A stretch of DNA of 62,183 nucleotides from NCBI GenBank assembly GCA_902794395.1, contig CADBHB010000015.1, forward strand, positions 1 to 62,183, read 5' to 3'. Made by a program: the position numbers and the translations under genes. The notes beneath the pieces were generated by a model. The model saw nothing but the letters and a program-made list of their open reading frames with translations, made no database searches and was not told the DNA's origin. Shown piece by piece: positions 1,825 through 56,053 of the stretch. Positions within the stretch are counted from its first letter, which is position 1; each line of letters starts with the position of its first letter. The stretch comes from an uncultured Ruminococcus sp. Its GTDB lineage: Bacteria > Bacillota > Clostridia > Oscillospirales > Acutalibacteraceae.

Positions 1825-1865
1825 CTAATATGTATAGCTATCTGAATAATAAGGAGGTCCGGCTT

Positions 1866-8183: not shown

Positions 8184-8233
8184 TTAAAGTGTATAAAAGG
8201 CTAAATACGTAAAAAGCAAAAGGAGTGATGACA

Positions 8234-9064
8234 ATGGGACTGTTTAAAAAAGCGGTTGACCGTTTGGTCAGTGACAAAGTGCCCCATAAACGGCGCAAAA
8301 GAATGATTATCTTTGTTGCCCTCATCACGGTGCTCTCCATGGTCACCTCCACCGTCGCGTGGTTCACCGTCAACACCTTCGCGGGTGTCAAGGTGTTTGA
8401 AATCAACATCAGCACGGGGCAACAGCTCAAGGTTTCCATGGAAAACCACGGCACGGACTTGGAAAAATACACCAATATAATCACTAATGAGATGGTCAAC
8501 AGCTATCTCGGCAAATACAACACCACGCTCAACGACCTGCTCCTTGCTCCCGTCACCACCAACAACGGCACCACCTTTACCTATCAAAGGGGGCAGGAGG
8601 TCAAGGAAAACGAGCAGGGCACCTATCTTGAGTTCAAGTGCTGGTTCATCGGCACCTGCGATATGTACGTCCACCTCACCACCGAGGGCAACAACAACGA
8701 CGACGGCAACGGAGTCGGCACTACCCGCATCACCTCCAGTTCCCCGGCGCCTCAAAGCGAGATCGTGCAGGCTGTGCGCATGAGCTTCGACGCCAACGAC
8801 AACGACAACAGCTACAAAACCTGGGAGCCTAACAAAGGTGCGCAGGTCACATCCCTGACAACTTTCGATCTTCCCGGCGGCACGATGGTCTACGGCGCTG
8901 AAAATCAGCTTTTCCACCTCAATGCGCTTGAACCCAAGGAGGTCACGCTCCGCTTGTGGATGGAGGGCGAAGATCCCCAGTGTGACGACGACGTCAAGGG
9001 CGCGCAGATGTCTGTCGAGCTTTCTTTCGTTGCCTGCAACGAGCACGGCGAACCTATTACATAA
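8234..9064 (+). CDS. SipW-type secreted or anchored protein, W-x-E-G-x-D family (paralogue A)
   Basis: The start at ATG 8234 is 8 bases after AGGAG; ATG 8228 and GTG 8225 are in frame but too close. A basic N-terminus and one hydrophobic segment (about 20-38) end in TSTVAWFTVNTF, the AWF signature seen at SipW-type cleavage sites. The mature part is beta-rich, with Asn/Asp-rich loops. Near the C-terminus is LWMEGEDPQCDDD followed by a final beta-strand; this block recurs in five other proteins of the locus. It is the first gene after the promoter. A fibre or matrix subunit is inferred from the family resemblance; the exact role is unknown. Confidence 0.75.
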   Translation: MGLFKKAVDRLVSDKVPHKRRKRMIIFVALITVLSMVTSTVAWFTVNTFAGVKVFEINISTGQQLKVSMENHGTDLEKYTNIITNEMVNSYLGKYNTTLNDLLLAPVTTNNGTTFTYQRGQEVKENEQGTYLEFKCWFIGTCDMYVHLTTEGNNNDDGNGVGTTRITSSSPAPQSEIVQAVRMSFDANDNDNSYKTWEPNKGAQVTSLTTFDLPGGTMVYGAENQLFHLNALEPKEVTLRLWMEGEDPQCDDDVKGAQMSVELSFVACNEHGEPIT

Positions 9065-9106: not shown

Positions 9107-9913
9107 TTGGCTTTCGGAAAAAAGAATAATCCCGTAACTCCCGAGGAGGTCGCCGATCTCGGTTTCAAGCATGAAGTCCAGGCAGCGAAGGATAAAAACT
9201 CCTCCGTATACGACCACTTCCATTCGCAGGAGAACGCAAAGGCGGTGGCAGACGCGAAAAAGCGCAAAAAGCGCTACGCCATCATCCTTGCGGCTCTGCT
9301 CGGAACACTCATTGTGCTATATATCGTTTCAATGCTCCGCACCCAATGGGGCGACCTCACCATCTCGGTCGGCAAGGTGTATGACGGCAAAACCATCATG
9401 CTCTGCGAAAACGCTGATTTTGAGGACGGAGTAAAGGTCAACCTCAACGGCGGAGTTATCAAGGACGTCACCAACATCACCAAGGACTGGATCCCCGCGG
9501 GCGTGGATGACGAAAAGGACGGTCAGCACAACGGAGAAAACTACCTCGCCTACACCTTCTATTTGAAGAATACCGGCGAGAAGGATCTCGAATACAACAC
9601 TACCTTCAATATCACGGGCGCCACCAAGTCCGCCGACGAAGCGGTACGCTTCCAAATCTACCGCAACGGCGAGGATCAGGTGTTTGCCAAGGGTCAGTAT
9701 GACGACCGCTCAAAGCCCGAGGAGGACGCTACGGCGTTTGTAGATGACAAAACCGTCTACACCGCGCAGGCAACGCCTTTAAAGGCGGGTGAGGTCGACA
9801 AATACACCGTCGTCATTTGGATCGAGGGCAACGACCCTCAGTGCGTTGACGATATCCGAGGCGGCACCGTTCGCTCTCATATGGTATTCGACGTCGTGCC
9901 CGACGTCAAGTAA
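9107..9913 (+). CDS. Membrane-anchored W-x-E-G-x-D family protein (paralogue B)
   Basis: The start is TTG at 9107 with GGAGGTG 7 bases upstream. Unlike its neighbours it has a long charged cytoplasmic N-terminus (about 60 residues) before one membrane helix (about 62-82) and no AWF cleavage motif, so it probably stays anchored. The extracellular domain ends with VIWIEGNDPQCVDD and a closing strand, matching the C-terminal block of paralogues A, C and E. It could be the base or anchor of a fibre built from its relatives (inference). It lies 42 bp after paralogue A in the same transcript. Confidence 0.72.
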   Translation: MAFGKKNNPVTPEEVADLGFKHEVQAAKDKNSSVYDHFHSQENAKAVADAKKRKKRYAIILAALLGTLIVLYIVSMLRTQWGDLTISVGKVYDGKTIMLCENADFEDGVKVNLNGGVIKDVTNITKDWIPAGVDDEKDGQHNGENYLAYTFYLKNTGEKDLEYNTTFNITGATKSADEAVRFQIYRNGEDQVFAKGQYDDRSKPEEDATAFVDDKTVYTAQATPLKAGEVDKYTVVIWIEGNDPQCVDDIRGGTVRSHMVFDVVPDVK

Positions 9914-9978
9914 ACTTGTATCATTGGTTTTCAAGCGTGGATGCTGGACGCGCGCGAAAACTGCGATAGAATAAAAAC

Positions 9979-9993
9979 TGCCGAAAAACGGCA
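9979..9993 (+). other. Small hairpin in the leader of the major subunit gene
   Basis: TGCCG/CGGCA around five A residues, followed by an A-run and then the AAGGAGG ribosome site. It is a weak stem; it may mark an RNA processing point but has no U-run for termination. Confidence 0.3.
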
Positions 9994-10018
9994 AAAAAAT
10001 TTTAAGGAGGATTTCTCT

Positions 10019-10810
10019 ATGACAAAATCTAGAAAGAGGATGCTTATTTCCTCGATCGCAATGCTTTTGGTTGCTCTCGTAGCTCTTGGCTCCGCGACCT
10101 ACGCATGGTTCTCAATCTCTAAGACCGTTAAGGCTGACACAATGCAGGTAAAAGCTATCGCTGCAGCCGGTCTTGAAATTTCAAAAGAGGCTGACGCTAA
10201 CTATAGCCCCACAAGAGTAAGCTTCTCCGGTACCACAGAGATCAAGCCCGTTTCGTGGGTTCCTGATGCGTCTCAAACCAACCATGGATTTGTTCCTTCC
10301 GGTAACATCGATTCTCCTGGCGGCGGATGGACTGGCGCTTACAAGGACACCAACCTGACTCCTTCCACTGACGCTCAGAACGCCTACTTCAAGACCTTTG
10401 ATGTATGGGTAAGATCAGCTCAGGAAGGTACCAAGCGTGTATCCCACGGCGTATCTGCGACTGTAAAGGTTGAGGATACCGGTACAACCAACAACGCTAA
10501 GACGTTTGTTCGTGCTTATCTGATTGATAACAGCACCACTACTAACAGCCAGACTTTCTCTAACGCTGTTGAAACAACTGCAGCTATCAGCGGTGCGACT
10601 GCCGGAACAACCACTGATGTTTCTTCCATCGCGTTCGGCACTGCCAAAACCGTAACCGCTACTCCCGCTGTTGCATCTGCTGCAGCTACTGACGAAGGTA
10701 TCCATTACACACTCGTTCTTTGGTTCGAGGGAACTGATGCTCAGTGCGTAGACGGAAACAAAGAGGCTGTTGCTAACGTAACTGTTGAGTTTACCGCTAC
10801 CGATATGTAA
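10019..10810 (+). CDS. Probable major SipW-type fibre subunit (paralogue C)
   Basis: ATG at 10019 follows AAGGAGG. A 263-residue protein with a textbook SipW-type signal: KSRKR, a hydrophobic stretch, then SATYAWFSISKT. The mature chain is rich in Ala, Thr and Ser, beta-type, and ends with LWFEGTDAQCVDG and a last strand. Codon use is unlike its neighbours: GCT, GTA and CGT-type codons dominate where flanking genes use GCC, GGC and CGC. That is typical of very highly expressed genes. With the strong RNA hairpins directly downstream, this suggests it is the abundant structural subunit (inference). TasA/camelysin-type matrix proteins are the nearest known analogues. Confidence 0.75.
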   Translation: MTKSRKRMLISSIAMLLVALVALGSATYAWFSISKTVKADTMQVKAIAAAGLEISKEADANYSPTRVSFSGTTEIKPVSWVPDASQTNHGFVPSGNIDSPGGGWTGAYKDTNLTPSTDAQNAYFKTFDVWVRSAQEGTKRVSHGVSATVKVEDTGTTNNAKTFVRAYLIDNSTTTNSQTFSNAVETTAAISGATAGTTTDVSSIAFGTAKTVTATPAVASAAATDEGIHYTLVLWFEGTDAQCVDGNKEAVANVTVEFTATDM

Positions 10811-10964: not shown

Positions 10965-11747
10965 ATGAATTCAAAAGTGAGAAAAGTCATCAATATCATT
11001 GTCGACGTGCTTGTTGTTATTGTGCTGTTGTTCTCAGCCTTAACGCTGACATTGGCACTGACCTCCAGAGCGTCGGGCGGGGTTCCCAACGTTTTCGGCA
11101 AATCTCCCATCGGAGTCCAAACAAACTCCATGCACGGCAGTCAAAAGGACAGCTTTGACAAGGACGACCTGATAATTTGCTCCAAAGTTAAGGATGTTAA
11201 TGCAAATTCCTTTAAGGAGGGCGACATCATCACCTTCCAGCAGGATATAAACGGTGACGGTGTTAAAGAACTGGTCACCCACCGCATTTACAGGGTAAAT
11301 GAGGACGGTTCCTATTGGACAAAGGGCGACAACAACTCGACCTACGACCAGGACCCCTCAAACAGCATTGTGTTCCCCAATAAATATTATTACGATGTTT
11401 TGGCGGTATATCACGGCACCCGTATCCCGAAAATCGGAGGCTTTATTAATCTCCTGCAAACTCAAAAGGGCTTCTTCTTCGTCATTCTCCTGCCCATGAT
11501 CCTCTTCTTCATTTACCAGGCGATCCGCGTGGTGCTCAACGCTATGGCGTACAGCAAGGAGAAGGGAATAGAGCAGGCAAAGGCGGCAGTCGCCAACGCC
11601 GAGCTCACCGAGGAACAGAAGAAAAGGGCTATCGAGGAATACCTTGCCGCCCAAAAGGGCGAAAAGGCCGAGGCTCCCGAAGATCCGGAGCCCGAAGACT
11701 CAGAGCCCCAAGACTCAGAGTCCCAAGACTCAGAGTCTGAAGCTTGA
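10965..11747 (+). CDS. sipW: SipW-type (ER-type) signal peptidase I, copy 1
   Basis: A 260-residue S26 peptidase. Ser55 in TNSM is the nucleophile, His106 in VTHRIYRV replaces the usual bacterial Lys (the ER/archaeal Ser-His form that defines SipW), and Asp122 lies in WTKGDN. One N-terminal helix (about 10-32) and one C-terminal helix (about 165-190) flank the catalytic domain, with a charged cytoplasmic tail. The tail ends in a 15-bp tandem repeat (EDSEP/QDSES units). It would cleave the AWF-type signals of the neighbouring proteins outside the membrane. The upstream hairpins probably keep its level below that of the subunit. Confidence 0.9.
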   Translation: MNSKVRKVINIIVDVLVVIVLLFSALTLTLALTSRASGGVPNVFGKSPIGVQTNSMHGSQKDSFDKDDLIICSKVKDVNANSFKEGDIITFQQDINGDGVKELVTHRIYRVNEDGSYWTKGDNNSTYDQDPSNSIVFPNKYYYDVLAVYHGTRIPKIGGFINLLQTQKGFFFVILLPMILFFIYQAIRVVLNAMAYSKEKGIEQAKAAVANAELTEEQKKRAIEEYLAAQKGEKAEAPEDPEPEDSEPQDSESQDSESEA

Positions 11748-11903: not shown

Positions 11904-11984
11904 GCCTTTCCCGCGCCGCAGGCGCATAAGTAAATGTTTCTTAAAGCTCCGATTTCGAGTTGGAGCCAATCGACCCGAAACCCT

Positions 11985-12012
11985 GCACCGTGCACCCCGC
12001 ACCGTGCACAAA
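11985..12012. repeat. Two tandem GCACCGTGCAC units
   Basis: GCACCGTGCACCCC is followed directly by GCACCGTGCACAAA. A related CCGTGCACCGTA lies at 13650-13662 on the other side of the AAA+ gene. They look like remnants of a simple intergenic repeat. Confidence 0.5.
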
Positions 12013-12041: not shown

Positions 12042-13574
12042 ATGGATAATGTATTTCAATTTCTCTTTCAATTTCTGGGACAATTCTTCGGTTCCATCTG
12101 GAACGGTTTTGTCACCATGCTCGGGGCGTTCAATATCCCCGAATACATCAGTATCATCACCCGCTATACCACTACATTGGGCGGTGTAGCATGGGTAATT
12201 GCGATCATCGCCATTGTGCTGCTGGTTGCGGTTCTCGGCTTTATCGTATTCCTTATAGTTGTTTCCTTGAAGAAATCCATCAGAAACCGCCGCGCGCGCA
12301 AAGATGCGGGCTCTCTGGTAAAAGAGGTTCAGGCTCTCAACCGTGAGGTAATGCGTCTCAATCTCGAAAAAGATAAGATCCTTTCCATGAAGGTTTCTCA
12401 AATCGGCCTCAATCCCAACGAGATCTCCGAGCTTACCGGCGAGGAAATCGAGGCTCTCAACAAGGGTCAGGGAGAAGAGGACGAGGATACCGGCGGCATC
12501 CGCTTCCTCAAGCTCACCAAGCTCGACGAGATCTGGGCAGATTATCAGCCGCCCGTATACGACAACGAGATCACGCTCCCCGAGTTCTGCGACCGCTTCC
12601 GTTTGTTTGCTTGCTCACGTCTTGGCTTGTTCTACGACATCACCATGATCCGCCGCTTCGTGGCAGCCTTCGCTTCAACCCGTTTGATCGTTCTCCAAGG
12701 TATTTCCGGTACAGGTAAAACCTCGCTGGCTTACGCCTTTGGTAAGTACGTCAGCAACCCGTCGGTAATCACACCGGTACAGCCCTCGTGGCGTGACCGT
12801 TCCGAGCTGTTCGGCTACTTCAACGAATTTACCAAGAAGTATAACGAGACCGAGCTGCTCCGCGCCATGTATGAGGCGAGATTCAACGAGAATGTCTATC
12901 TGGTCATCCTCGATGAAATGAACATCGCGCGTGTTGAGTACTACTTCGCTGAGATGTTGTCCATCCTCGAAATGCCGCGCCGCGATGAGTGGATCGTTGA
13001 CCTTGTTCCCTCCCAGTGGAAAAACGACCCCAAGCTGCTTCAAAACGGCAAGTTCACCTTGCCTCCCAATATGTGGTACTGCGGTACCATCAACAACGAT
13101 GACTCGACCTTCGCCGTTACCGATAAGGTATACGACCGTGCTATGCCTATCAACATCGACAACAAGGGCGTTGCTTTCGAGGCGCCCGACACTCCGCCTG
13201 TCGTCATAAACTACCATCACTTTGAGGCTATCCTCAACAAGGCAAAAGCCGAAAATCCTGTTTCGCAGGATGTGCTCAATAAACTCGCTCTCGTTGACGA
13301 CTACATCATCGCGCATTTCCGCGTAGCTTTCGGTAACCGTATTATGAAGCAAATCAAGGACTATGTTCCCGCTTATGTCGGTACCGGCGGCACCGAGGTA
13401 GACGGTCTGGACTACATCCTTGCGCGTAAGGTACTGCGTAAGTTTGAGGCTCTCAACCTCTCCTACATCCGCGACGAGATCGACGGACTTATCGCCTATA
13501 TGGATGAACTGTTCGGCGAAGAGAATATGAATGAGTGTAAGGATTATCTCCGTATGCTCAAGAAGCTTGTTTAA
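12042..13574 (+). CDS. Membrane-anchored McrB-like AAA+ ATPase
   Basis: 510 residues. One strong membrane helix (about 49-75) replaces the DNA-recognition domain of classical McrB. After a short coiled region comes an AAA_5/McrB-type motor: Walker A GISGTGKTS (220-228), Walker B VILDEMN (287-293, the McrB-style LDEMN), sensor I GTINNDDS (348-355) and a candidate Arg finger in DRAMPI (366). Classical McrB is a GTPase that powers a restriction complex; nucleotide choice here cannot be read. It sits between sipW copy 1 and a DUF2357-like gene, in a locus of exported proteins, with AAGGAG before its ATG. I infer a motor working at the inner membrane face, perhaps in fibre export or assembly. Confidence 0.8.
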   Translation: MDNVFQFLFQFLGQFFGSIWNGFVTMLGAFNIPEYISIITRYTTTLGGVAWVIAIIAIVLLVAVLGFIVFLIVVSLKKSIRNRRARKDAGSLVKEVQALNREVMRLNLEKDKILSMKVSQIGLNPNEISELTGEEIEALNKGQGEEDEDTGGIRFLKLTKLDEIWADYQPPVYDNEITLPEFCDRFRLFACSRLGLFYDITMIRRFVAAFASTRLIVLQGISGTGKTSLAYAFGKYVSNPSVITPVQPSWRDRSELFGYFNEFTKKYNETELLRAMYEARFNENVYLVILDEMNIARVEYYFAEMLSILEMPRRDEWIVDLVPSQWKNDPKLLQNGKFTLPPNMWYCGTINNDDSTFAVTDKVYDRAMPINIDNKGVAFEAPDTPPVVINYHHFEAILNKAKAENPVSQDVLNKLALVDDYIIAHFRVAFGNRIMKQIKDYVPAYVGTGGTEVDGLDYILARKVLRKFEALNLSYIRDEIDGLIAYMDELFGEENMNECKDYLRMLKKLV

Positions 13575-13690
13575 TCTCACATTTTTACTTGCGGGATGTC
13601 AACTTCGGCATCCCTCAAGGTGCTTCTTTTAAAGCACCGTTAATTATTTACCGTGCACCGTAAACCAAACAAAGACGAGGTGAAGTTGTT

Positions 13691-16243
13691 TTGGAAAATT
13701 TTGACCAGTACTACCGTTCATATAAATATATGCAAAAGCACCTCGCTACCGATTTTACCGCCAACTATCTCACCGCGAACATGGTGGATAACGATAAGGG
13801 AGAGGACATCCTCTCAGGTAAGCTCCATGAAAAGGTAATCGACATGGAGTGGGTCACCGAAATCGAGGACACGCTTCCCTATATCGAAAAGGCGATCGAC
13901 GAGCAGCGCCGCTTCATTATCGAGAATAATGAGGTTTACCGCATCGACAAAGCTAAAATCATCAACAAGGACTCTGTAAAGCACCTCATTCAGCACACCA
14001 ACTTCATCGACAACATCGACGATAAGGGCAAGGTCACTCCCAACAAGGTGCTGACCATCGAGCGCGAGGACAGCTTTGAGACCTACGAAAACCGTTTCTT
14101 GATAACGCTTATCGAAAAAGCGCTCGAATTCGTTGCCGATAAGTACCGCAAAATGGTCGACGCGCCCACCGATACCTATAATAAGGTGGAAATGGAGCGC
14201 GACCTCGTGCTCAACAACCAGCGCGTTACATTTAAAATGGAATATTCCAACGAGGTAAAGGACGCAGAGGCGTCACAGCTCGACGTCAAGGACTATGAAA
14301 AGCTCTCCGACTTCGACCGTGTACGCCGTATCCGCGAAAAACTCAACTCCTTCCTCGGCACCGATATGATGCAGGCACTCAAAAAGTGCATCCGCGTCAA
14401 GCCCCCTATCAACCGAACCAACCTGATGACCAAGAACCCCAACTACAAGGCGGGTCTGGATCTGTTTACCTACCTCGGCGCCTACAACAAGCCGGGTTAC
14501 GAGATCATCGGCAAGGACTTCTCGGGTAAAATGGATAAAGAGGTGCAGGAAGCCGTTTACATCTCTCAGGGCTTCCAGCATTTTATGATAACCATCGCCA
14601 CCAACCCCGCGCTCAGACGTCTCCTTGAGGAACGCTATCAGGAGAACAAGTCCGGTCACGGCAAGGCGGGCGACCGAGAGATAGAAGAGATGATCGAAAA
14701 CGTCCGCAAGGAGGAGCTGAAGCTCAGACTCCAGGAGATACGCGAACGCGAAAAGATCATCCGCGAACAAAAGGCTGAGATCGCCGCTCTCAAGCGCGAG
14801 ATCGAAAAGCGCGACAAGACCATAGAATCCCTCAAGAGTAACATCCGCGCTCTGGAGGATCGCATAAAGGAACTCGAAAACGAGCTGCAAAAGGTCAAAG
14901 CAGAGCTGATAAAGGCGAAGGAACGCATCGCCGAACTCGAGGCAAAGGTCGCCGAGCTCGAAGCGCGCATCGCAGAACTCGAAGCTCAGGTAGCGGCATT
15001 ACAGGCAAAAGTCGCCGAACTCGAGGAGATCAAGGCTCAGCTCGAGGCGAAGATCGTCGAGCTGGAAGGTATCATCGAGGAACAGAAGGCGCGTATCGCC
15101 GAACTCGAAGGCATCGTAGCTCAGCAGAAGGCACGCATCGAAGAACTCGAGGCATATGTAGCCGAGCTGGAGAAAACCAAGGCTATGCTCGAGGAGCGGG
15201 TCGCTTCCCTTGAGGCGGAAAACGCTCAGCAAAAAGCGACAATTGCGGCGCACGAGGCGACCATCGCTTCACAGCTTGCCGCTATCGAAGGACTCAATCA
15301 GGAGATCGCCTCCGCAAAGTCGCAGATCACCGATCTCACCTCTACTCTCGCGCAGCGTGACGCCACCATCGCTACTCAGACCGCAAGGATCACCGAGCTC
15401 GACAATAACGTCGCTCAGCTCGCTGCCGATCTGGCGACCGAAAAGCAGGAGCGCGCCGCTGATGTCGAAGCGGCAAACGCCGCCGCAAAGGCAAAAGAGG
15501 AAGAGCTCAACAAGCTCTTTGACGGCGAGAGAGCATACCTTGAAAACAAGCATAAAAAAGAGCTTGAGCAGCTTGAAGCCAACCACCAGGCGGCGATGGC
15601 TAAGCTCGATAAGCAAAAAGAGGCAGAAAAAGCCCGTATCCAGAAGGATGCCGACGGCCGCGTAAGAGCTGCGCAGAAAGAAGCCGAGAAGAAGGCGAGA
15701 GCGCAGATCAAAACAGAGGTCCAAAAGGCTCAGGGCGAGGCTAAAAAGGCTGAAAGAAAAGCCAACGAAACCGCTGCCTTCTATAAGCGTGAGCTCAAGA
15801 TCGACCGCGGCAACGACGGAGCGTTCAAGTTCGACTTCCCCGTCGGTGCGCTGGGTGTTCAGGAACTTAAGGCGGTGTCACTCGCCGCGGCCGGTTCCGA
15901 CATGAGTTTGTTGCCTAACAACAGCAAGATTGCCTGCGTTTATCTTATTCAGGATAATAAAAAGGTCACCGTTTATAACGGCAGACATAATAAGCTTGAG
16001 GTCGTCAAAAACCTTCGCGGCGCCTCTTCCTTTGACGAATGTAAGGATTTGGTCAAGCAGTTGCTTGCAAACGCCGACAAGAGCTGTGCATATCTGTCTT
16101 ATAAGTCGGTAGACAAAAACTATATAAGCAATTTTGCCGCCTTCCTAAAATCTGACGCCGGCTTCAGCGTCACTCAAAACTTCCATAACAAGGCGCAAAA
16201 GAGCGGCAAATCTATCATCGGTATCTATTTTTATAGAGGTTAA
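13691..16243 (+). CDS. DUF2357-like protein with very long coiled coil
   Basis: Start TTG 13691 with GAGGTG 8 bases before. The N-terminal 300 residues resemble the DUF2357/McrC-partner family: ETYENRFLITLIEKAL near 140 and a PPINRTNL-KNPNYKAG stretch near 240. Residues about 325-700 are almost unbroken heptads (repeats of AELEAKVAELEAR), enough for a rod of roughly 50 nm if fully helical (arithmetic inference). A globular C-terminus of about 150 residues shows no PD-(D/E)XK nuclease signature that I can find. DUF2357 proteins normally pair with McrB-like ATPases, as here with the preceding gene. Loss of the nuclease and gain of a rod suggest a structural role rather than restriction. Confidence 0.7.
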   Translation: MENFDQYYRSYKYMQKHLATDFTANYLTANMVDNDKGEDILSGKLHEKVIDMEWVTEIEDTLPYIEKAIDEQRRFIIENNEVYRIDKAKIINKDSVKHLIQHTNFIDNIDDKGKVTPNKVLTIEREDSFETYENRFLITLIEKALEFVADKYRKMVDAPTDTYNKVEMERDLVLNNQRVTFKMEYSNEVKDAEASQLDVKDYEKLSDFDRVRRIREKLNSFLGTDMMQALKKCIRVKPPINRTNLMTKNPNYKAGLDLFTYLGAYNKPGYEIIGKDFSGKMDKEVQEAVYISQGFQHFMITIATNPALRRLLEERYQENKSGHGKAGDREIEEMIENVRKEELKLRLQEIREREKIIREQKAEIAALKREIEKRDKTIESLKSNIRALEDRIKELENELQKVKAELIKAKERIAELEAKVAELEARIAELEAQVAALQAKVAELEEIKAQLEAKIVELEGIIEEQKARIAELEGIVAQQKARIEELEAYVAELEKTKAMLEERVASLEAENAQQKATIAAHEATIASQLAAIEGLNQEIASAKSQITDLTSTLAQRDATIATQTARITELDNNVAQLAADLATEKQERAADVEAANAAAKAKEEELNKLFDGERAYLENKHKKELEQLEANHQAAMAKLDKQKEAEKARIQKDADGRVRAAQKEAEKKARAQIKTEVQKAQGEAKKAERKANETAAFYKRELKIDRGNDGAFKFDFPVGALGVQELKAVSLAAAGSDMSLLPNNSKIACVYLIQDNKKVTVYNGRHNKLEVVKNLRGASSFDECKDLVKQLLANADKSCAYLSYKSVDKNYISNFAAFLKSDAGFSVTQNFHNKAQKSGKSIIGIYFYRG

Positions 16244-16246: not shown

Positions 16247-17440
16247 ATGAAGAAAAAGACAAGCCCCAAGCGGCATTTGCTTTTGACTAAAAACTTCATA
16301 ATGATGCTTGTCATGCTTGTCGTTATCATCGTGGCTATCAGTGCGTGGTTTACACAGTATAAAACCGTTGACGCCACTAACATTTCGGTAAAGGCTGAAT
16401 CGTCCGAAATAGATATTGCGCAGTCTATCAAAACTTATAATGCCGACGGAACGGTCAAGACGGACGGTCCGGGCGTATTTGGTTCCGAAGTCGTTTTCCA
16501 GGTTCCGGTCGATTTCGGCAAGTTCACAAAGGACTGCACCGGCGACGGAGTTAATTTGATCGTTCCCGAGTTCAATGTCACCAATGACTATGAAAGCGTC
16601 CGGAAAAACGGCGGTAAAGAGGTTAACGAAAACCTTTCGGCGTCAGACGCGTTGTCAAATGTTGATTCCGCGCGCCAGCATAGTTTGCATCCGGAAAATG
16701 ATCCGCCGGAGTATCAGTATCTTGAATTTGATTTTTACGTACGTTCAAAGAATAAGGAATTAAAATTGATGCCTGAAACACGGGTTGTAGCTTCTACCGA
16801 AGCCGGCGGCAGCAGTTTATCGACTGTTCCCGAAGGCAAGAAGAGCGAATACGGTAACTTTAATGTCGACGGTTTAGTGGGCGCGATTCGGGTTTCTCTC
16901 ATCGGTCAAGGTTGCACCTCCGTCAATCAGGCTTGGGAGAACGGCTCGTTGGTCACGGACGGCGAAAGAGCTCCTTCTTCGGCGCGAAACGCTGCGGAAC
17001 GTCAGCTTCTTTGGCTGCCCCGTCCGGATGTCCATTTGGATATAAATCCAAATGAAGGAGACGTTTCAAACTGGGGCTTTTCCACAGGTGTTACCAGTCA
17101 GCAGTTTAACGGCGAAACCTATAAAGCGGCATATTACACCGGCACTTCTTCGGGCGTCGTTTTGAATCCCGAGGATGAAGACGCGGTCGTGTCCAGAGGC
17201 ACAGCCACCGAAAGTGGTGTTCAGGTGAAATCCTTGGGTCAATATGTAAACATTACTGATTTTACCTATTCTAACCAATTGTCTCCGATCAGCTTGGTTG
17301 TCAACGGTTCGGATATATCGGTTACAGACAATTACTATGTCACCAAATACAAGATGAAGGTCTGGATCGAGGGTACGGATACCGAGGCACGCCGCGCCAT
17401 GGATGGCGGAAAATTTAACATTAAGCTTTATTTCGCGTAA
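16247..17440 (+). CDS. SipW-type protein, W-x-E-G-x-D family (paralogue D)
   Basis: ATG lies 3 bases after the stop of the coiled-coil gene and its AGAGGTT site lies inside that gene's end, so translation is probably coupled. The signal region has lysines, a hydrophobic core and AISAWFTQYKT. The 397-residue chain is beta-rich and ends with KVWIEGTDTEARR plus a final strand; the Cys of the motif is replaced. Coupling ties the motor pair to the fibre proteins. Probably a minor subunit or tip protein; unproven. Confidence 0.7.
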   Translation: MKKKTSPKRHLLLTKNFIMMLVMLVVIIVAISAWFTQYKTVDATNISVKAESSEIDIAQSIKTYNADGTVKTDGPGVFGSEVVFQVPVDFGKFTKDCTGDGVNLIVPEFNVTNDYESVRKNGGKEVNENLSASDALSNVDSARQHSLHPENDPPEYQYLEFDFYVRSKNKELKLMPETRVVASTEAGGSSLSTVPEGKKSEYGNFNVDGLVGAIRVSLIGQGCTSVNQAWENGSLVTDGERAPSSARNAAERQLLWLPRPDVHLDINPNEGDVSNWGFSTGVTSQQFNGETYKAAYYTGTSSGVVLNPEDEDAVVSRGTATESGVQVKSLGQYVNITDFTYSNQLSPISLVVNGSDISVTDNYYVTKYKMKVWIEGTDTEARRAMDGGKFNIKLYFA

Positions 17441-17490: not shown

Positions 17491-18795
17491 ATGGGCAAAG
17501 GCGCAAAAGCGGCATTTTGCGGGACCAAAGCGTTTTTTAAGCGCTGCCGTAAACCGATAAGAAGAGTGTTGCTGTCCGTGATCTCGCTTGTTATTGTTTC
17601 GGTTTTGCTTGTTACCATGTCTTTTTCATGGTTTTCAATCAAAACCTCCGAGCTCGACGCCTACGACTTCGAGCTGGACTGCGGCAAGGGCTTACGCGTA
17701 AACGATACCGGTACCAGCCAACTCTCCTTTACGGAAGTGGACAATTACCTTACGCCCGCTTCATCGGTCACAGGCATGAACCTGTATTTCCCCACAGATG
17801 GGTCGGATTTTTCTCAGACCACGGCAAATATGACCTTTCGCAGTGCCAACGTAGGCGACAAAAACCAAAACTACATTCAAATCGATTTTACTCTTACCGC
17901 ACAGCAAAACCACACTGCTCTCTACATTAACGAAGAAAAAACCAGCATTATGGTAAAGTCCAGTAACGAGCAGAATTACAGCACCGCACAGGCGGGAGCG
18001 CTGCGGGCGGCTTTATGGTCATCTACGGCTGAAGACGGAGTACCCAACACACCTATAGTCTTCAATCCCACTTCCAGCACACTGTATACCGCTGCTGTGG
18101 AGGACGTTGACCGTTCCACGGGTGCCTTCATCAGCTCAGGCAGACAAGTCGCTCACACCTTCAGCGAATACTCATTCGGCGGCACGCCCGTTGCGACTCT
18201 TGACAGAGGCATAGAAACCAAGTTTTCCTATATCATATGGCTTGAAGGCACCGACCCTAAGTGTACCGACAAGATCAAAGACAAGGATATACAAATAAAA
18301 TTGGCGTTCACTACCTCTTGGGATAAGACCGAAACCATCCGTTTTCAGGATGATACGAACGGTGAATGGATCAAGTCCATGCTCAACGGCAACAACGCAA
18401 CACATACCCTCACGCTGCACTACGAGGAAGTTCAGACAGTTAACGGTACCGATCAGCCGACAGGCAGCTATATGGATTTCAATATGTATCCGTTAAACGC
18501 ACAGACCGATAATGTTTGGTCCTGTAATATCCCGGGCGATATGAGAAAGAATATTTCCTTCATTCTGCGTCCCAAGAGTGGCAGCAACGACCAGCGTATC
18601 TATAAATTCACCTACAGCAGCAAAGTTGCGGGAGAAACAACGCTCAACCGTGGTTCCAACAGGCTATATGTAGCGCAAGATGGTCAGTATATTGCCAATA
18701 ACTACGAAACCTGCAAGGGCTACTGGGTAGCCATCGGCGACAGCGACGGCGCCGGTCACGACAACGGCGGCGGACTCGACGGCGACGACTTCTAA
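17491..18795 (+). CDS. SipW-type protein, W-x-E-G-x-D family (paralogue E) with extra C-terminal domain
   Basis: AGAGGTGAG precedes the ATG. A long basic N-terminus, a hydrophobic helix (about 28-45) and FSWFSIKTS form the SipW-type signal. The family block IIWLEGTDPKCTD occurs near residue 250 rather than at the end; about 165 residues follow as a second beta domain (IRFQDDTNGEWIKS onward), ending in a Gly/Asp-rich tail. It may present an added binding module on a fibre subunit. No enzyme motif is seen. Confidence 0.7.
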   Translation: MGKGAKAAFCGTKAFFKRCRKPIRRVLLSVISLVIVSVLLVTMSFSWFSIKTSELDAYDFELDCGKGLRVNDTGTSQLSFTEVDNYLTPASSVTGMNLYFPTDGSDFSQTTANMTFRSANVGDKNQNYIQIDFTLTAQQNHTALYINEEKTSIMVKSSNEQNYSTAQAGALRAALWSSTAEDGVPNTPIVFNPTSSTLYTAAVEDVDRSTGAFISSGRQVAHTFSEYSFGGTPVATLDRGIETKFSYIIWLEGTDPKCTDKIKDKDIQIKLAFTTSWDKTETIRFQDDTNGEWIKSMLNGNNATHTLTLHYEEVQTVNGTDQPTGSYMDFNMYPLNAQTDNVWSCNIPGDMRKNISFILRPKSGSNDQRIYKFTYSSKVAGETTLNRGSNRLYVAQDGQYIANNYETCKGYWVAIGDSDGAGHDNGGGLDGDDF

Positions 18796-18822: not shown

Positions 18823-20946
18823 GTGAAAAAGAGGTTCAACATCAAAACAAAATTCGGCAGAAAAAGCATCCTGTTTGCAACAGTGTCCATCCTGTTGATG
18901 GTTTTGCTGACAATCAGCGGCACCTCAAGCTGGATCGAGGATGTTTCTCAGGTAGAATTCAAATCGAACGATGATTCTCAGCAGACGCCCGTACATATCG
19001 GCAGCAAAGTCTTAAAATCCGACGCGGTTATGAAGTCAAACCCCACAGGAACCACTGAGGTCAACCTCGAGCATTACTTCAACAAGTCGGGCGACATGCA
19101 CCTCTCTCCCTGCTACGGCGACGGCGAAAACTTCTATTTCCCCGTAGATCAGCAGAGTGTCAGCAACAGCGTATCCTACCGCACCGGCACCAAGGACGAC
19201 GCGAACGTCAACTATCTCAGCGCCACCTTCCGTATCCAATCCGAAGGCGCGGCGACCGCCTATTGGTTTGAAAAATCAGGCAACGACCACGACACGCCCT
19301 ATGTCACCTTTAAAGACCGTGATAACGTAACAGCGACAAATCCCGAAACGGGCGAGCCTACCAACTATGGGACAGTATCCGGACTTGACCAATATCTGCG
19401 CATTTCAGTCACCATCGACGGCGCTACAAACGTTTATGCGCTCAATTCCAACGGGCAGTATAATACTGTTTCCGGTGGTAACACACTGTCTACTGTCACC
19501 GGTCGCCGCATAGATCAATACACATATTACACGGAAGCCTTCAATGACAACAGTCCCGAGCAGTATTATAAAAACACGGCAAACGTGAACAACAAGCCTA
19601 ATCAGGGTGCCGGCTACAACCTCAACGGCAATACTCTGTTCACAGTCAATAAGCTTGATTCTTCAAACGCGAACACTATAAAAACCGTTACGGTAAAACT
19701 GTGGCTCGAGTATAACAACAGCGGCGTCAGTGCCGCGGATCTTGCTTCCGTCAACCTCAACTTTGTTTCCTCCCATGCAAAAACCAGAAGGATTTATGTG
19801 AAGGATGCGACGGTTTGGCAGGATAATTACGCCCAGCCAAAATGGTTGTCTCATAATGGCTCCAGTGATAACACCGCCGGTCTGTTTTGGGTTTTAAAAG
19901 ATGATTCAAGCGTTCACTATAAGTTGAACAGAGTTAGCAGCTCGTCTGATTACTATTATGTAGATGTTCCTGCGGTGTATAATAACGCGGCGTTCAAGCT
20001 ATCAAGACGCAGTTCAACGACATGGAATGGCAGTTCAGAGTGGGACAAATGGGAAACGACCTTCCCCAATACGTTCCACAGCGAGACCTATACCGTGTAT
20101 TCCACCGACTTTGCCACATGGGAGCCTGCCTCCAACGTGCACGTGGTCTATTTTACGGACTCTGCTTTCTTTGGAAGTAATCATGTATATGATTATATGT
20201 GGGACAGCGCAAGTGTCATAAACAATAATGACATCAACGCCAAGGTCGTTAAAAACGCGAACTGGCCCGGCGTGAAAATGAACGCCAAGATGAAAACCAA
20301 AACCGCTTCTCAAAGCCTGGATACCTATGCGTTTTTCTACAACGCTGATTATGACCGTATTATCTTCAACGATGGTGATTTGGTAACTGGTCAAAACCAA
20401 GAATACCAAACGCAGGACTTGTGGTTGACTGACAGTCAGGGAAACCCATTAAACTTGGTCAACGGCACCTTTGATATGACCACCTTGACGTGGTTCCATA
20501 CAAATCCGACGAATACCTCAACTTGGTCTAGTAGAATGCCAACCTATAGCACCGCCTACATCGATGGCAACTTTTCCACCAATAATGCGTGGAAAAAAAC
20601 ACGGTTTGCCTATGGCGGCGAGTATGTCAATACAACCGGAAACGCATTTAAGGACACAAGCGCCAACAATATGTTGTGTAAGGTTTATATTAAATCAGAA
20701 TTGTCCGCAAGCAACGCTGGTGATTATCAGTTTGTTATCCATTACAATGGCAATACATATAAGACTTGGGCAGATAACGGTCATTTGAATTTATATGCCG
20801 GCGGTTCTGTAGAAATGTATCCCGAGGGCGGCAATAATAACAGCCATGTTATTTGTAAAGGACTGGATAAAGGTGTGTATCGTTTTTATTTAAAGCCTAT
20901 TGCAAATAATGGCATACAGGTATACCTTGTTGCCGGCGAGAATTGA
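18823..20946 (+). CDS. SipW-type surface protein with CBM26-like starch-binding module (paralogue F)
   Basis: GTG start with AAGGAGGTGA upstream. The signal helix is followed by SGTSSWIEDVS, a divergent AWF site. The N-terminal half is a family domain closing with VKLWLEYNNSG near residue 295. The region about 435-560 resembles CBM26: VHVVYFTDSAFF, DYMWDS, ANWPGVKM, YAFFYNADYDRIIFNDGD. CBM26 modules bind alpha-glucans. A further beta domain follows to residue 707. A fibre-associated glycan-binding component is inferred. Base composition is slightly more AT-rich towards the 3' end. Confidence 0.7.
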   Translation: MKKRFNIKTKFGRKSILFATVSILLMVLLTISGTSSWIEDVSQVEFKSNDDSQQTPVHIGSKVLKSDAVMKSNPTGTTEVNLEHYFNKSGDMHLSPCYGDGENFYFPVDQQSVSNSVSYRTGTKDDANVNYLSATFRIQSEGAATAYWFEKSGNDHDTPYVTFKDRDNVTATNPETGEPTNYGTVSGLDQYLRISVTIDGATNVYALNSNGQYNTVSGGNTLSTVTGRRIDQYTYYTEAFNDNSPEQYYKNTANVNNKPNQGAGYNLNGNTLFTVNKLDSSNANTIKTVTVKLWLEYNNSGVSAADLASVNLNFVSSHAKTRRIYVKDATVWQDNYAQPKWLSHNGSSDNTAGLFWVLKDDSSVHYKLNRVSSSSDYYYVDVPAVYNNAAFKLSRRSSTTWNGSSEWDKWETTFPNTFHSETYTVYSTDFATWEPASNVHVVYFTDSAFFGSNHVYDYMWDSASVINNNDINAKVVKNANWPGVKMNAKMKTKTASQSLDTYAFFYNADYDRIIFNDGDLVTGQNQEYQTQDLWLTDSQGNPLNLVNGTFDMTTLTWFHTNPTNTSTWSSRMPTYSTAYIDGNFSTNNAWKKTRFAYGGEYVNTTGNAFKDTSANNMLCKVYIKSELSASNAGDYQFVIHYNGNTYKTWADNGHLNLYAGGSVEMYPEGGNNNSHVICKGLDKGVYRFYLKPIANNGIQVYLVAGEN

Positions 20947-20989: not shown

Positions 20990-22312
20990 ATGAACACAAC
21001 AAAAAAGCTCTTTGCGTTGATGCTGATCGGCGTGTTGCTGGTGGTCAGCTTTGTGCCGTCTACGTTTTCATGGTATCCTCACAACGACACAGAGGAAGGC
21101 AAAAGTATCCACTATGCCGATGATTTGGAGCTTTCTTTAAAAACGGCTTCTGATTCGGTTTCTATGTCAACGGTCACCTGTGACAAAAACGGTTTGGTTT
21201 CCAACACCAATACGGTAACGGGAATCAGCGCAAATGCGGGCACCGTTGTATATTATAAAACTACTATAGAAAACAGTGGTTCCGATCCTGTTATGGTCGA
21301 TCTTGAGACGCTGAATCTCCCTAACAACGCTGATTTTGCTATAGGTACTTTCAGCCCCACCATCAACGAAAAGGCGTTTGCGTCGCGTGCCGTGCGCTCC
21401 AAGGTGTCGGATGATAAGGTGCGTGTCTATTTCAAGACCAACAGCTCCATGGCCTCTTATTGGGCGGTCGATAACGGCAGACTTCTGAGGGAAGCAGGAA
21501 CATACATGCCCGACGGTTCAACACCGACCTCAACAGCGGCTGCAGGTTCTTCTTCTCAAACAAGCAGCAGCACAGGCACGACCAATGATATCAATATTTC
21601 ATATACGGTTGACGGCAAAGAAGTTCAAATGATGATGACCCGCACCAACTCTTCCAACTATGATACCATTACCGACGATAGCGGTACCAACAAGGTGTAT
21701 TACGCCGACATTCCTTCCGGTACCGAGAAGTTCTATTTCTTCAACCATTGGTATCTGCGTTCCGCCTCCAACCGCGAGTGGAACCGCACGATTGATATTA
21801 CCGACCTCTCCGCCGGCAAGCTGTATTATCTTACGGGTCAAAGTGTAGACAACCAGTGGAAGGAATACAAGTCAAGAGATGTTGACCACACCCTTGTTGC
21901 AGTCAACAACTATTACAAATCCGTCCGCATGAGCTTGGGCAACAGCATTTTTGCCGACATCAGCCTCAAAAAGGACAGCGATACAGAGGACGAGGAGTTT
22001 GTTCCCGATTATTACGGCAACAGCATTTCTTACAGTGTGTATTCGGGATCAAGTTATGTGTCTGTTAACAAGGATGGTTTGATCACGCCTAAGGCGGCAG
22101 GTACCGCTACGGTTAGAACCACCATAACCGGACGCTATGGAGATACGCGTATATTAGACACCACGGTGTATATCCCGACGAATATAGATCAGGTGCCCAT
22201 CATCAAAAATGTGCGTGTTCCGGAGGGTGACAGCGTCGATGTTTATTGGTACGCGCGCAACAACAGCAGTACTGAGCGTATGTCGACCGGTGCGATTTTC
22301 TTAACGATTTAA
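20990..22312 (+). CDS. SipW-type secreted protein with Ser/Thr linker and BIG2-like domain
   Basis: AAAGGTGG precedes ATG. The signal MNTTKKLF... ends with PSTFSWYPHND, again a SipW-type site. Domain 1 (about 35-170) is beta-rich, with an ENSGSDPVMVDLETL stretch typical of camelysin/TasA-like folds. A Ser/Thr/Ala linker (about 180-205) follows, then a beta domain, and a BIG2-like Ig fold (about 345-400) with VSVNKDGLITPKAAGTATV. It lacks the W-x-E-G-x-D block. Likely an accessory adhesin or fibre component processed by the next gene product. Confidence 0.68.
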   Translation: MNTTKKLFALMLIGVLLVVSFVPSTFSWYPHNDTEEGKSIHYADDLELSLKTASDSVSMSTVTCDKNGLVSNTNTVTGISANAGTVVYYKTTIENSGSDPVMVDLETLNLPNNADFAIGTFSPTINEKAFASRAVRSKVSDDKVRVYFKTNSSMASYWAVDNGRLLREAGTYMPDGSTPTSTAAAGSSSQTSSSTGTTNDINISYTVDGKEVQMMMTRTNSSNYDTITDDSGTNKVYYADIPSGTEKFYFFNHWYLRSASNREWNRTIDITDLSAGKLYYLTGQSVDNQWKEYKSRDVDHTLVAVNNYYKSVRMSLGNSIFADISLKKDSDTEDEEFVPDYYGNSISYSVYSGSSYVSVNKDGLITPKAAGTATVRTTITGRYGDTRILDTTVYIPTNIDQVPIIKNVRVPEGDSVDVYWYARNNSSTERMSTGAIFLTI

Positions 22313-22327: not shown

Positions 22328-23152
22328 TTGAAAACAAATAATACAAAAAAAGAAGAAAAGACAAAAAATATACAAACAGAAACTCAAAGCGGCGAAAAAA
22401 AATCGCCGCTTAAAGTCGTTATAAAAGTAGTTAAAATCATAAAGAATACCATTCTTGTTATCATACTTGCGGCTCTGCTATGCCTGCTTGCCGTAATTTT
22501 GACGGCGCGCATGAACGGTGAAACTCCGACCCTCTTCGGCTACACCGTTTACCGCGTCAGCTCGGCGAGCATGACGCCCTACCTAAAGGTCGGCGACATC
22601 ATTCTGTGTCAAAAGTGCGACCCGATGAAGCTGCGCGACGGTGATGTAATAACCTATAACGGAAAAAGCGGACAGTTTGCCGGCAAGCGTGTAACGCACC
22701 GCGTTATCAAAGAACCCTACTACAATGAAAACGACGGCAAGTATTATCTGCTTACCAAGGGCGACGATAACCCCGCCGAGGATACGCCCATCACTACCTC
22801 TCAGGTAACGGGCAAAATGCTGAGAAAGATCGACATGTTAAAGAGCGTGTATGACTTCTTTGTCACGCCGTGGGGTCTGTTGACGCTGATCGGGTTGATT
22901 ATTCTGGTGTTTTTCGGAGAGATCATAAATTTTGTCAAGGCGTTGTTCGGCATTGAAGTCGAAGAAGAGGAGCACGAGGACATACAAGATGTGATAGAGC
23001 GCGTGCAGCGCGAGGAAGCCGAAAAGCAGGCGGCTTTGGAGGAAAATGCCCAACGGGTTTCAAAATCCGAAGGATATGAGGAAGCGGAAGAGAGCTTTGA
23101 AAACAGCATTGAAGAGAGTCAGACCTCCGCGGAAAACGACGAAAACAAATAA
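22328..23152 (+). CDS. sipW: SipW-type (ER-type) signal peptidase I, copy 2
   Basis: TTG start 15 bp after the previous stop, with a weak GGATGG site. Catalytic residues: Ser81 in SASMTP, His124 in VTHRV (in place of Lys) and Asp146 in TKGDDN. One helix at about 38-60 and one at about 180-205; the tail is very acidic (runs of Glu) and cytoplasmic. It differs from copy 1 in having a longer basic N-terminus. Two such peptidases bracket the locus, so each may serve a subset of substrates. Confidence 0.88.
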   Translation: MKTNNTKKEEKTKNIQTETQSGEKKSPLKVVIKVVKIIKNTILVIILAALLCLLAVILTARMNGETPTLFGYTVYRVSSASMTPYLKVGDIILCQKCDPMKLRDGDVITYNGKSGQFAGKRVTHRVIKEPYYNENDGKYYLLTKGDDNPAEDTPITTSQVTGKMLRKIDMLKSVYDFFVTPWGLLTLIGLIILVFFGEIINFVKALFGIEVEEEEHEDIQDVIERVQREEAEKQAALEENAQRVSKSEGYEEAEESFENSIEESQTSAENDENK

Positions 23153-23402: not shown

Positions 23403-26400
23403 ATGAAGCAAAATAAAGTGCGGTTTTCAAGATCGGCTATGTCAGTGCTCTTGGCGCTGTGTATGCTTGTGTCCTGCTGTATGGTGGCGCTGATTCCTAC
23501 CGACGCGGCAAAGGTGGAAAGTGAGGGGGTGGGTACCAACCGTGATGTTTACTTTACGCCGTACCACGGCGGCGAAGGTGCGGGCTGGATCAAAGATAAT
23601 GTGAAGATTGGTGCGCATTTCCAGTATGCAACAAATTCATGGGCTTCCAGACAAGGCTCTGACACCGGTCGTACGCAGGGCGGTCAGAGAGTATATAAAG
23701 TAACCGTTTTTGAAGACTACGGTGGATTGGATAATCTTTATTTCAGACGTGACAGCCTTGATAGCAATAATTCTAACGAGCAGCATGCGATTAATGGCTG
23801 GTCTGCAACAAGTAATTGGGCAGGAAAATACTATAACGGTTCTTCATGGGTATCTTTGTCCTACGATACCTTTAAACTCAAAAATAATGGCAATGATCTT
23901 GCGACATTTACGAACAGCTCCGGACGCGTGTACACAGCGACCGCAACTTTATCGGCGGGAACGACCTATAAGCTGAATGTTCACGACGGCACGAATTACT
24001 GGGCGAACAGCAGTGCCGGTACGCTGAGCAGCAGCGGCAATGAAACGTTGTACCGTTATGGCTCCGGCGGCAGCGCGGATTGTCTTACTATCACCGCACC
24101 CGTAACCGGCAGCTACAGCTTTACCTGGACGCTGAACGGCGCGGGTAGCCGCGAGGACGCGGGTACTCTGGCGGTCACCTTCCCGACAACATATACTGTC
24201 AGCTACTCGCTCGGTTCCAATGTGACAAAGGGAACCATTACCGGCGGCGATGACAACGGCAGCGGCACCATCACCGCTGTTTCGGGCAGCAACGTTGTCA
24301 TTAACGTCAGCTACGCAAGTGGATATGAATATGACAGCGCGAATTCCTCGCTGGGCGGCGCGACAGCGAGCAACAGCAATACGACATTTACCTTCAGCAG
24401 TATTTCGTCAAACAAAACCATTTCTATCGTCGCGAAGCAGAGCGCCTTTACGGTCACCGTGCAGGCGGGAACGGGAGGTTCTATATCGGGCACCACGAGC
24501 TTTACGGGCTTGACTTCCGGCGGCGGAGGTACTATTACCGCTGTGCCTGATACAGCAAACAACTATGTGTTCTCGGGCTGGACGGCAAACCCTGCCGGCA
24601 ACATCACCTTTGCCAGCTCGGGCTCGGCGACGACTACCTTTGAGGCGACCGGCGCGGCGACGATCACCGCGAACTTTACACAGGAGACATTGTATCCGGT
24701 GACGGTTTATTTGGATGGTTCCACGGCGTCCACCGTAAACGCGGGCAGTACGATCAATCCCGAGATCACGCGCACGGATCGTTCGCTTGATGACTACGAT
24801 TTTACCGGATGGACGCTGAACGGCAACGTGCAGCTGGCTTCGGGTTATTCAACCTCCGACCCGACCATCAAGATCAGCGCGACGGGCAGCGGCGGCACGG
24901 TCACCGCGAACTACAACCATGTGGATTACGTGTATTTTTACGCGGGCGTTCAGGATAACTGGAACGGCGCCGTGCGGGCAAAGCTTGGCAACACCGAGTT
25001 GACTGCCGCAAACACCTATTTGTACAATTCTTATCGAAACGACGGAAGTAATCACGGCGGTACCACCGGAAGCTTGGCGATCTACAACGCGAGCGGAAAT
25101 ACATTAGGCGGAGAGGCTACCTGGTATTACGTAGCGATTTTCCGTGTTCCGGCAAGTTCTACGGGAAAAATCTATGTCGGCACCAACAACGCTTGGGTAG
25201 ACTGCGGCAATATCCATACCGACAAAAACGGCTACGGCTACTTTGCCTCCAGCTATTCCGATAACAATAACTTTTCGGTCGTTCTAAGTCCGCATGAGGT
25301 AACGGCGGTCACACTTAATAAATCCGATTATGACGGCGATGAAACTATTACTGTCAGCAAGACGGAAACAGTTTATTCCGGAACAAAAACAGCAGGTCAG
25401 GACGACTTTACCTACACCTATGAGCTGGTGAACTCCGGTACGAATGCGGTGGTAAAAACGCTGGGTACGGACTTGCCTTCCAGCACAGGTAACTATACCT
25501 TTGTGCCCGATCAAAAGAATATCGCCGCGGGCAGCTACAAGATTGTCATCCATACGCGTGACTCGACAACCGGCAAGATCCATAATTCCTGCGCATCAAG
25601 CACCTTTACCATTCAAACAACTCCGACACAGTCGACTGTGTCCGCGAGCGCGACTAACGGCAGCGTGACTTCGCGCAGCTATACCTACAAAAACGGCTCC
25701 GCAACGAGCTTCAACAACGGCGCCAGCCTGAGAGCGGGTTCGGTTGTCACGCTGACGTATACGCTGAACAACGGCTATACACAGGGCACCACCACGCCGA
25801 CAGGCATCGCGTCCTCGGCGCTTACAGAGAGTTATAATTCCACTACCCGCGTGCTGACCATCACGTTCACCGTTCCCTCCGGCGGTACGGCGATCACGAT
25901 CTCTCACACGGCGAGTGAGATCACACATTCCGTGATTGTGAAACGGCGTTATTATCAATCCAACGGCACGACGCAAATCACCGTGGACAGCTCGGCTTAC
26001 CAAACACTGACCGGCGTTGGTATCTCTACCGCGAAGTCAACCAATGCCGCACCTACGATGGAAAACTATACATTCTGGAAATTTACCCTTCCGTCGGGTG
26101 TAACGCTAAAGACCGGTGATTTGACGACCGCTGCTGCCATTTCCGTTAACGCGACGGTGGATAACGCAACGATCTATATCGATTATAAGGAAACGCTGTA
26201 TACTTTGACTCTGGTGAATCAGGGCAGCCACGGTACTATCAAGCAGAGCGGCAGCTCCACGGCGCTTTCCTCCATTCAGGTGGGCAATGTAACCGGCGTT
26301 ACTCTGGTAGCTACGCCTAACGAGGGTTATCAGTTTAGTTCGTGGGCAAAAACGACGAATGCCTCGGCTATTACGATCGGCAACGCGTCGAGCAACTCGA

Positions 26401-55937: not shown

Positions 55938-56053
55938 GTTGGTGTCGATGACGCTGAGGGTCCACCTGTTCCCATACCGAACACAGAAGTTAAGCTCAGT
56001 GGTGCCGAAAATAGTGCCTTGGCGACGAGGTGTGAAAATAGGGAGATGCCAAC
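55938..56053 (+). rRNA. rrf: 5S ribosomal RNA (isolated copy)
   Basis: The stretch contains CCACCTGTTCCCATACCGAA, then CACAGAAGTTAAGCTC, the conserved core of bacterial 5S rRNA. TTGGTGTC at the 5' end pairs with GATGCCAA at the 3' end (stem I). 116 bases. A T-rich run follows. No 16S, 23S or tRNA gene is next to it, so it is an orphan 5S with its own promoter. Confidence 0.95.

Follow-up and report, generated by a model that had tools for sequence, protein, structure and literature searches.

The stretch of DNA analysed here (the window) comprises 62,183 nucleotides and is a single contig from the 2.2 Mb genome of an uncultured Ruminococcus species, whose relatives are mostly uncultured Ruminococcus, Oscillospiraceae or Clostridia, many of them from gut or rumen samples according to the record titles. 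Its subject is a pair of neighbouring genes, one for a McrB-like AAA+ NTPase with a predicted membrane helix and one for its partner, a DUF2357 protein with a long coiled coil, embedded among genes for SipW-type signal peptidases and candidate surface proteins (F1 to F7). The genes all lie on the plus strand in the order FtsW, penicillin-binding protein, SecA, F1, F2, F3, SipW 1, AAA+, DUF2357 coiled-coil gene, F4 to F7, SipW 2 and a 2210-residue protein. Loci and genomes used for comparison are given as L and G numbers.

The AAA+ protein and its DUF2357 partner

The AAA+ protein contains a single strong hydrophobic segment (residues 55-73), followed by a charged stretch that looks helical by eye and then by a McrB-like AAA+ domain with the Walker A sequence GISGTGKT and the Walker B sequence LDEMN. 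The original prediction, made from the sequence alone, had noted a membrane helix and this McrB-type Walker B in one gene, and the open reading frame (ORF), its hydrophobic segment and its similarity to McrB bear it out: the solved McrB chains 6ut6 and 7vsr match at E-values of about 1e-6, and the AAA_5 family scores 22.3 bits on the isolated domain (cut-off 22) and 21.3 bits, below the cut-off, on the whole protein. Across 27 aligned sequences with 49-95% identity to the window protein, the Walker and signature residues are invariant, barring one T-to-I exchange in Walker A. The signature GTxNxDxST, with KVYDRA behind it, is present in the window and in relatives, and NNDDST occurs in 124 AAA+ ORFs; this NxD form is common to ordinary Bacillota McrB sequences and is not specific to the membrane clade. 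By hydropathy, the membrane segment is found in 123 of 123 AAA+ ORFs (every ORF so labelled once the control and odd sets are set aside; in some the flanks are too short for SipW to be seen) and in none of ten ordinary McrB proteins. Models of FtsL match the segment and the following helix weakly (FtsL_Actino at E 4e-4 and 20.2 bits, where the cut-off is 55). No DNA-modification reader domain appeared among Pfam and NCBIfam matches up to an E-value of 1, the N-terminus being occupied by the membrane segment.

In the partner, DUF2357 (PF09823) is recognised at residues 76-159 with 23.8 bits (cut-off 23.3) in a scan confined to the first 330 residues, and is absent among the matches listed for the whole protein (25 of 31 families). 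The domain is clearer in relatives, reaching 34-53 bits in eight of them and exceeding the cut-off in six of eight partners from other families and in two of three further partners scanned whole; the partners at L083, L233 and L234 gave no DUF2357 match. An ENRF-like DUF2357 motif occurs in 118 of 121 partner ORFs. Coiled-coil families match the window partner from about residue 310 to 700, and 21-bp repeats lie within its gene at 14928-15026. A DUF2357-like N-terminus fused to a long heptad region, as proposed earlier, is present, with DUF2357 marginally over its cut-off. The accompanying suggestion that the rod serves as a ruler or general scaffold fared less well, since partner ORFs range from 360 to 994 residues and those at L231, L232 and L235 (379, 373 and 360 residues) extend little beyond the DUF2357 region; a universal ruler was rejected on account of this variable length and the nearly rod-less cases. 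A search of solved structures with residues 1-353 of the partner returned nothing useful.

McrC-type partners usually bring a nuclease, and the proposal that this one does not was open to contradiction by a nuclease in its C-terminus. The last 180 residues of the window partner match no nuclease family, and sequence family models detected PD-(D/E)XK in none of 18 partners from SipW loci scanned whole or in part (six in their tails only; for the window partner, 25 of 31 matching families were listed). The same approach placed seven of nine ordinary McrB partners above the PDDEXK_7 cut-off; these nine came from ten (L241 left out), with L246 falling just below the cut-off and L243 cut by the contig end. 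Partners from two loci without SipW (L228, L085) likewise gave no nuclease match, and no nuclease was recognised among the window neighbours scanned, which are a part of all neighbours. A search of the window's own genome with PDDEXK_7 gave no match, but neither did the control genomes, so that this negative carries no weight. A nuclease in the partner is rejected within the reach of the family models used.

The partner ends in a small C-terminal domain, which an alignment read by eye shows in 15 of 35 partners, others carrying charged repeats. In some partners it bears a weak resemblance to DegV (window 15881-16240 by alignment; L073 9072-9983; L074 6272-7183): PF02645 matches L073 at E 7.5e-5, below the cut-off, and L074 at E 0.24, and hhalign comparison of the short domain with DegV gave E 0.02, or 0.0046 with L073 and L074 included, at probabilities below 8% and with one of the four DegV rows (L249) probably being the wrong ORF. 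DegV proteins bind lipids, and the likeness, seen in sequence comparisons, is no more than a lead.

Conservation and content of the neighbourhood

The neighbourhood was compared across a public set of 80 of at least 585 confirmed relatives and a congeneric set, between which species overlap, so that rows are not independent; the hidden Markov models for the locus were built from L049-L088, partly from the same genomes as those counted, and the threshold for accepting a match was E 1e-6 for the main set and 1e-4 for the distant loci and controls. In all 56 loci with flanks of 3 kb, a SipW gene lies within 6.5 kb of the AAA+ gene, as does an ORF with the W-x-E-G-x-D motif, in agreement with the co-occurrence in Clostridia that the original prediction had proposed to survey. 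A DUF2357 gene follows downstream in 73 of 76 loci with 1.5 kb available there (it is missing from L195, L213 and L222; L207 has no called AAA+ ORF). Among 46 loci with flanks of 5 kb, SipW and DUF2357 are found in 46, F2 in 45, F3 in 40, F1 and F4 in 33 each, F5 in 30, F6 in 22 and F7 in 10. Within the family the linkage holds even where AAA+ identity has fallen to 49%, and eight loci from six other families (seven genomes, G822 contributing two loci) contain SipW in 8/8, DUF2357 in 8/8 and F2 in 7/8. None of ten ordinary McrB loci, several of which reach contig ends, has SipW or F2. A chance neighbourhood was rejected on the recurrence in many genomes and the absence of SipW and F2 from these controls. 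SecA, of which the copy upstream of the cassette is the sole full-length one in the genome, precedes the cassette in the window and in four of 20 congeneric neighbourhoods (L049, L050, L051, L059), and its linkage is not general.

Two loci carry AAA+ proteins with a membrane segment and no SipW in 20 kb. At L228, two such AAA+ genes flank one DUF2357 gene, and at L229 the partner has 834 residues and no Pfam family up to E 0.01.

Table 1. Genes of the cassette in the window
Feature	Coordinates	Strand	Characteristics
F1, candidate SipW substrate	8225..9064	+	hydrophobic segment then STVAWF; WMEGED
F2, membrane protein	9107..9913	+	hydrophobic segment 59-77; WIEGND near end
F3, candidate SipW substrate	9941..10810	+	ATYAWF; WFEGTD
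SipW-type signal peptidase 1	10965..11747	+	TIGR02228 62.2 bits (cut-off 51.85); NSM at S55, THRI at H106, TKGDNN at D122
McrB-like AAA+ NTPase, 510 aa	12042..13574	+	predicted N-terminal membrane helix; NxD-type signature GTINNDDST ... KVYDRA
DUF2357 (McrC N-terminal-like) protein, 850 aa	13691..16243	+	coiled-coil rod, small C-terminal domain; nuclease not detected
F4, candidate SipW substrate	16247..17440	+	WIEGTD; 3 bp after coiled-coil gene
F5, candidate SipW substrate	17491..18795	+	SFSWF; WLEGTD
F6, large candidate surface protein, less constant	18823..20946	+
F7, candidate surface protein, least constant	20990..22312	+	STFSWY
SipW-type signal peptidase 2	22328..23152	+	TIGR02228 96.7 bits

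Both peptidases (Table 1) exceed the TIGR02228 cut-off, and the SipW model NF046067 scores them at 95.4 and 84.3 bits, short of the 190 bits set as its cut-off. The serine, histidine and aspartate listed for the first peptidase are what we take to be the catalytic residues of endoplasmic-reticulum-type signal peptidases, and the substrate labels of the F proteins follow what is presumably the SipW signal motif. The earlier designation of the neighbours as fibre proteins was not confirmed: no window F protein matches a Pfam family above the cut-off, profiles of F2 and F3 found no credible match among solved structures, the SipW-substrate model TIGR04088 matches one of 17 F3 proteins (E 0.0024) and the TapA model gives E 0.094 on F1. 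F2, the most constant companion of the AAA+/DUF2357 pair, has a predicted cytoplasmic tail of about 58 residues, its hydrophobic segment starting at residue 55 as the median of 64 ORFs, and would be the protein most likely to touch the pair directly.

The coiled-coil gene ends with a stop codon at 16241-16243 and the next ATG is at 16247; this 3-bp gap and a ribosome-site-like AGAGGT within the 3' end of the coiled-coil gene are both as first described. The gaps preceding the AAA+ gene and the coiled-coil gene (11980-12009 and 13650-13658) hold a tandem unit of 14 bp and one more copy of ACCGTGCAC, a type of unit present in three copies in the window against 0.55 expected. In the position of the window's F4-F7, L075 and L077-L081 have an unlabelled giant ORF after the DUF2357 gene. 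The 2210-residue protein after the second SipW (23403-30035) has a divergent InlB B-repeat type domain. Elsewhere in the window lie a 114-bp tandem repeat of 6.8 copies within an ORF (810-1582), the FtsW/RodA-type protein with an FHA domain (1830-3545), a leucine-rich-repeat protein with a dockerin domain (30527-31546) and a 5S rRNA gene (55938-56054).

Distribution and descent

The AAA+ gene is present in 64 of 100 congeneric genomes and in 40 of the 50 good ones. Beyond the genus, matches of whatever similarity, some of them not of the membrane type, occur in 29 of 200 family genomes; they also occur in 27 of 291 genomes of the class, several of them full-length and in other families, and in 54 of 398 genomes of the phylum, where apart from the window's own genome mostly the AAA+ core is matched. 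Among the 100 congeners, 62 have both the AAA+ and the DUF2357 gene, two the AAA+ gene alone, three the DUF2357 gene alone and 33 neither. When SipW is counted at E-values up to 1e-14, a threshold chosen post hoc with the SipW matches already known, 62 genomes have both AAA+ and SipW, two only AAA+, 14 only SipW and 22 neither.

The identity of the AAA+ proteins to that of the window follows the identity of the partner closely (rho 0.89, 54 genomes) and that of SecA less so (0.72, 52 genomes), and agrees poorly with that of rpoB (0.36, 43 genomes), in samples that mostly omit genomes with only partial matches to AAA+, rpoB or SecA and in which many rpoB values stem from the first ~1013 of 1152 residues. 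Strict vertical inheritance was rejected on these values. Genome G061 shares 95% rpoB identity with the window species and likewise carries its cassette behind SecA (L059), but its AAA+ protein is 76% identical; conversely, in G075 rpoB identity is 81% and AAA+ identity 91%. Because AAA+ identity disagrees with that of rpoB in these ways, cassette alleles appear to have been exchanged between lineages.

In a tree without the two very long rows L086 and L087, the SipW-linked group requires one change, with support of 78/24, and 34 of 35 rows fall into a clade with support of 95/86; with both rows included, two changes are needed. A single, weakly supported origin of the SipW-linked AAA+ proteins is possible on these trees, and the pair as such likely arose from a conflict-type ancestor. 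A near relative without SipW, L085, sits among genes matching the PADLOC models Mokosh (MkoA) and PD-T4-6, and plasmid proteins related to its cassette lie in similar gene rows. The row shared by L085, L253 and L254 consists of a PP2C phosphatase (L253, L254), a kinase (annotated in L254; PD-T4-6 matches in L085), a large AAA protein (MkoA matches in L085), a protein of ~480-540 residues, the AAA+ protein and its partner, which is annotated as DUF2357 in L253 and falls below the DUF2357 cut-off in L085. The membrane form itself was covered to 80% by none of 262 matching plasmid records and by neither of two matching phage records.

Interpretation and comparison with known systems

With a membrane segment in 123 of 123 AAA+ ORFs and SipW in 56 of 56 loci, the idea that a McrB/DUF2357 pair without a detectable nuclease has been recruited to the envelope is upheld. 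We favour, with fair confidence, the reading that the pair is a membrane-bound, nuclease-free descendant of McrBC, of the class named CoCoPALM, dedicated to making SipW-processed surface proteins; a defence-type machine has probably been reused for building a surface structure. With the parts of McrBC kept, a nuclease unseen and the ring protein tethered to the membrane, the work of the pair would most simply be spent on the exported proteins encoded alongside. In McrBC, a finger of McrC plugs the McrB hexamer and triggers hydrolysis at single sites in turn, and McrC has been proposed to rotate stepwise (PMC7680126). By analogy, the AAA+ subunits would form a ring beneath the membrane, in which the DUF2357 finger, seated as McrC is, would set off nucleoside triphosphate (NTP) hydrolysis. 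The ring might then act on the exported subunits while these are still in the cytoplasm or the membrane, extracting them, ordering them or handing them over; its likeliest contact would be the cytoplasmic tail of F2, and SipW would afterwards cleave the subunits outside. The coiled-coil tail and the C-terminal domain could be lineage-specific adaptors. Both the fibre nature of the products and the mechanism of the pair are inferred. An elaborated version, in which a McrB ring anchored in the membrane moves a nuclease-free finger of the McrC type by turning or pushing it while rod and C-terminal domain pass the work via the F2 tail to growing surface filaments, as an NTP-driven assembly motor unrelated to type IV pilus, sortase and chaperone-usher machines, is unlikely.

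Several observations weigh against a dedicated role in making surface proteins. Strong SipW matches occur without the AAA+ gene in 14 of the 100 congeneric genomes, and if SipW is counted at E-values up to 1e-3 the four classes become 64, 0, 27 and 9, a weaker association. The pair at L228 and the one at L229 have the membrane segment and no SipW nearby, and the cassette appears to be exchanged between lineages as defence genes are. Neither structural nor Pfam matches speak for the fibre identity of the F proteins. The words 'ATPase' and 'McrB' are absent from the main texts of the two SipW papers searched, and recombinant BsaA is described as polymerising when made in E. coli, without such a motor (PMC7395162).

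The apparent exchange would also agree with the pair still being a defence or conflict system, in which a membrane-tethered McrB/DUF2357 complex senses phage at the envelope and the exported proteins act as effectors or as a shield. The AAA+ protein matches the PADLOC family PDC-M26A at E 7.6e-42, and L085 lies among Mokosh (MkoA) and PD-T4-6 matches in a cassette with plasmid relatives. Against this, PDC-M26A is only a candidate family according to PADLOC, the partners match no nuclease, and the membrane form is missing at 80% coverage from all of the plasmid and phage records mentioned above. The linkage to SipW and F2 is regular as well; a usual setting in defence islands, named beforehand as the finding that would overturn recruitment to the envelope, did not appear, the labelled neighbours in SipW loci being SipW and F genes, for which no scan with defence models was made. 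We regard a continuing defence function as unlikely.

To a similarly low degree we credit a localisation or switch factor in the manner of PcdA, in which the NTPase would position export machinery on the membrane instead of powering assembly. The McrB family provides a precedent, PcdA of S. aureus being a member co-opted as a cell-division factor (PMC10602043), and both the FtsL-like, below-cut-off match of the membrane segment and the position behind SecA in the window and four of 20 congeneric neighbourhoods would fit. The SecA linkage is, however, not general, and PcdA is described as lacking a McrC-type partner and as having NTPase motifs that are degraded (PMC10602043); here motifs and partner are both kept. 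A pair that travels as a passenger with the surface-protein genes, without a role in export or assembly, would agree with the 14 SipW-only genomes and is very improbable given the linkage kept down to 49% AAA+ identity within the family and in eight loci of six other families.

If the dedicated role in making surface proteins is correct, a restriction-type motor has become an envelope machine in many gut Clostridia, and SipW-dependent surface proteins would have an energy source of a kind unmentioned in the two SipW papers searched. This reading predicts that the pair does not cut DNA and that surface proteins are lost on its deletion.

The original prediction knew of no described system of this kind, which does not hold: CoCoPALM had already been named with these features, in a single paragraph that defines the class without a mechanism and leaves its treatment to a future publication (Bell et al., 2024; PMC11090510). 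No such account was found in the open-licence literature beyond the two versions of Bell et al., most subscription journals lying outside the search. That paragraph describes an NxD McrB GTPase fused to an FtsB-like membrane and coiled-coil segment, an association with a signal peptidase family, and coiled coils usually on both homologues (PMC11090510). The window pair shares the NxD McrB with a membrane and helical segment, the coiled-coil McrC homologue and the neighbouring signal peptidase (56/56 loci, and 8/8 in six other families); coiled-coil families match the partner, except, to judge by length, at L231, L232 and L235. Judged by these features, the pair is best placed in this class, its membrane segment matching FtsL models below their cut-off. 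Beyond the paragraph, the peptidase is of the SipW type, a nuclease is undetected, some partners do without the rod and F2 is a fourth gene of near-constant presence.

With McrBC, a type IV restriction system, the pair has in common the AAA+ domain, the Walker motifs and the DUF2357 activator, whereas the membrane segment, the missing PD-(D/E)XK match and the SipW context set it apart. CoCoNuT systems share the NxD McrB and the coiled coils, and their McrC nuclease is sometimes inactive or lost, but the membrane segment, the SipW context and the lack of a nuclease among the window neighbours scanned differ. PcdA shares the shift of a McrB-family AAA+ protein from restriction to an envelope task and differs in its EVE domains as well as in the points given above (PMC10602043). 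The SipW-TasA and SipW-BsaA matrix systems have in common with the cassette a SipW-type peptidase encoded in one locus with exported substrates. New here are the core of F2, SipW, AAA+ and DUF2357, which gives the little-explored CoCoPALM class a concrete form, the rod that is not universal and the apparent exchange of the cassette between lineages.

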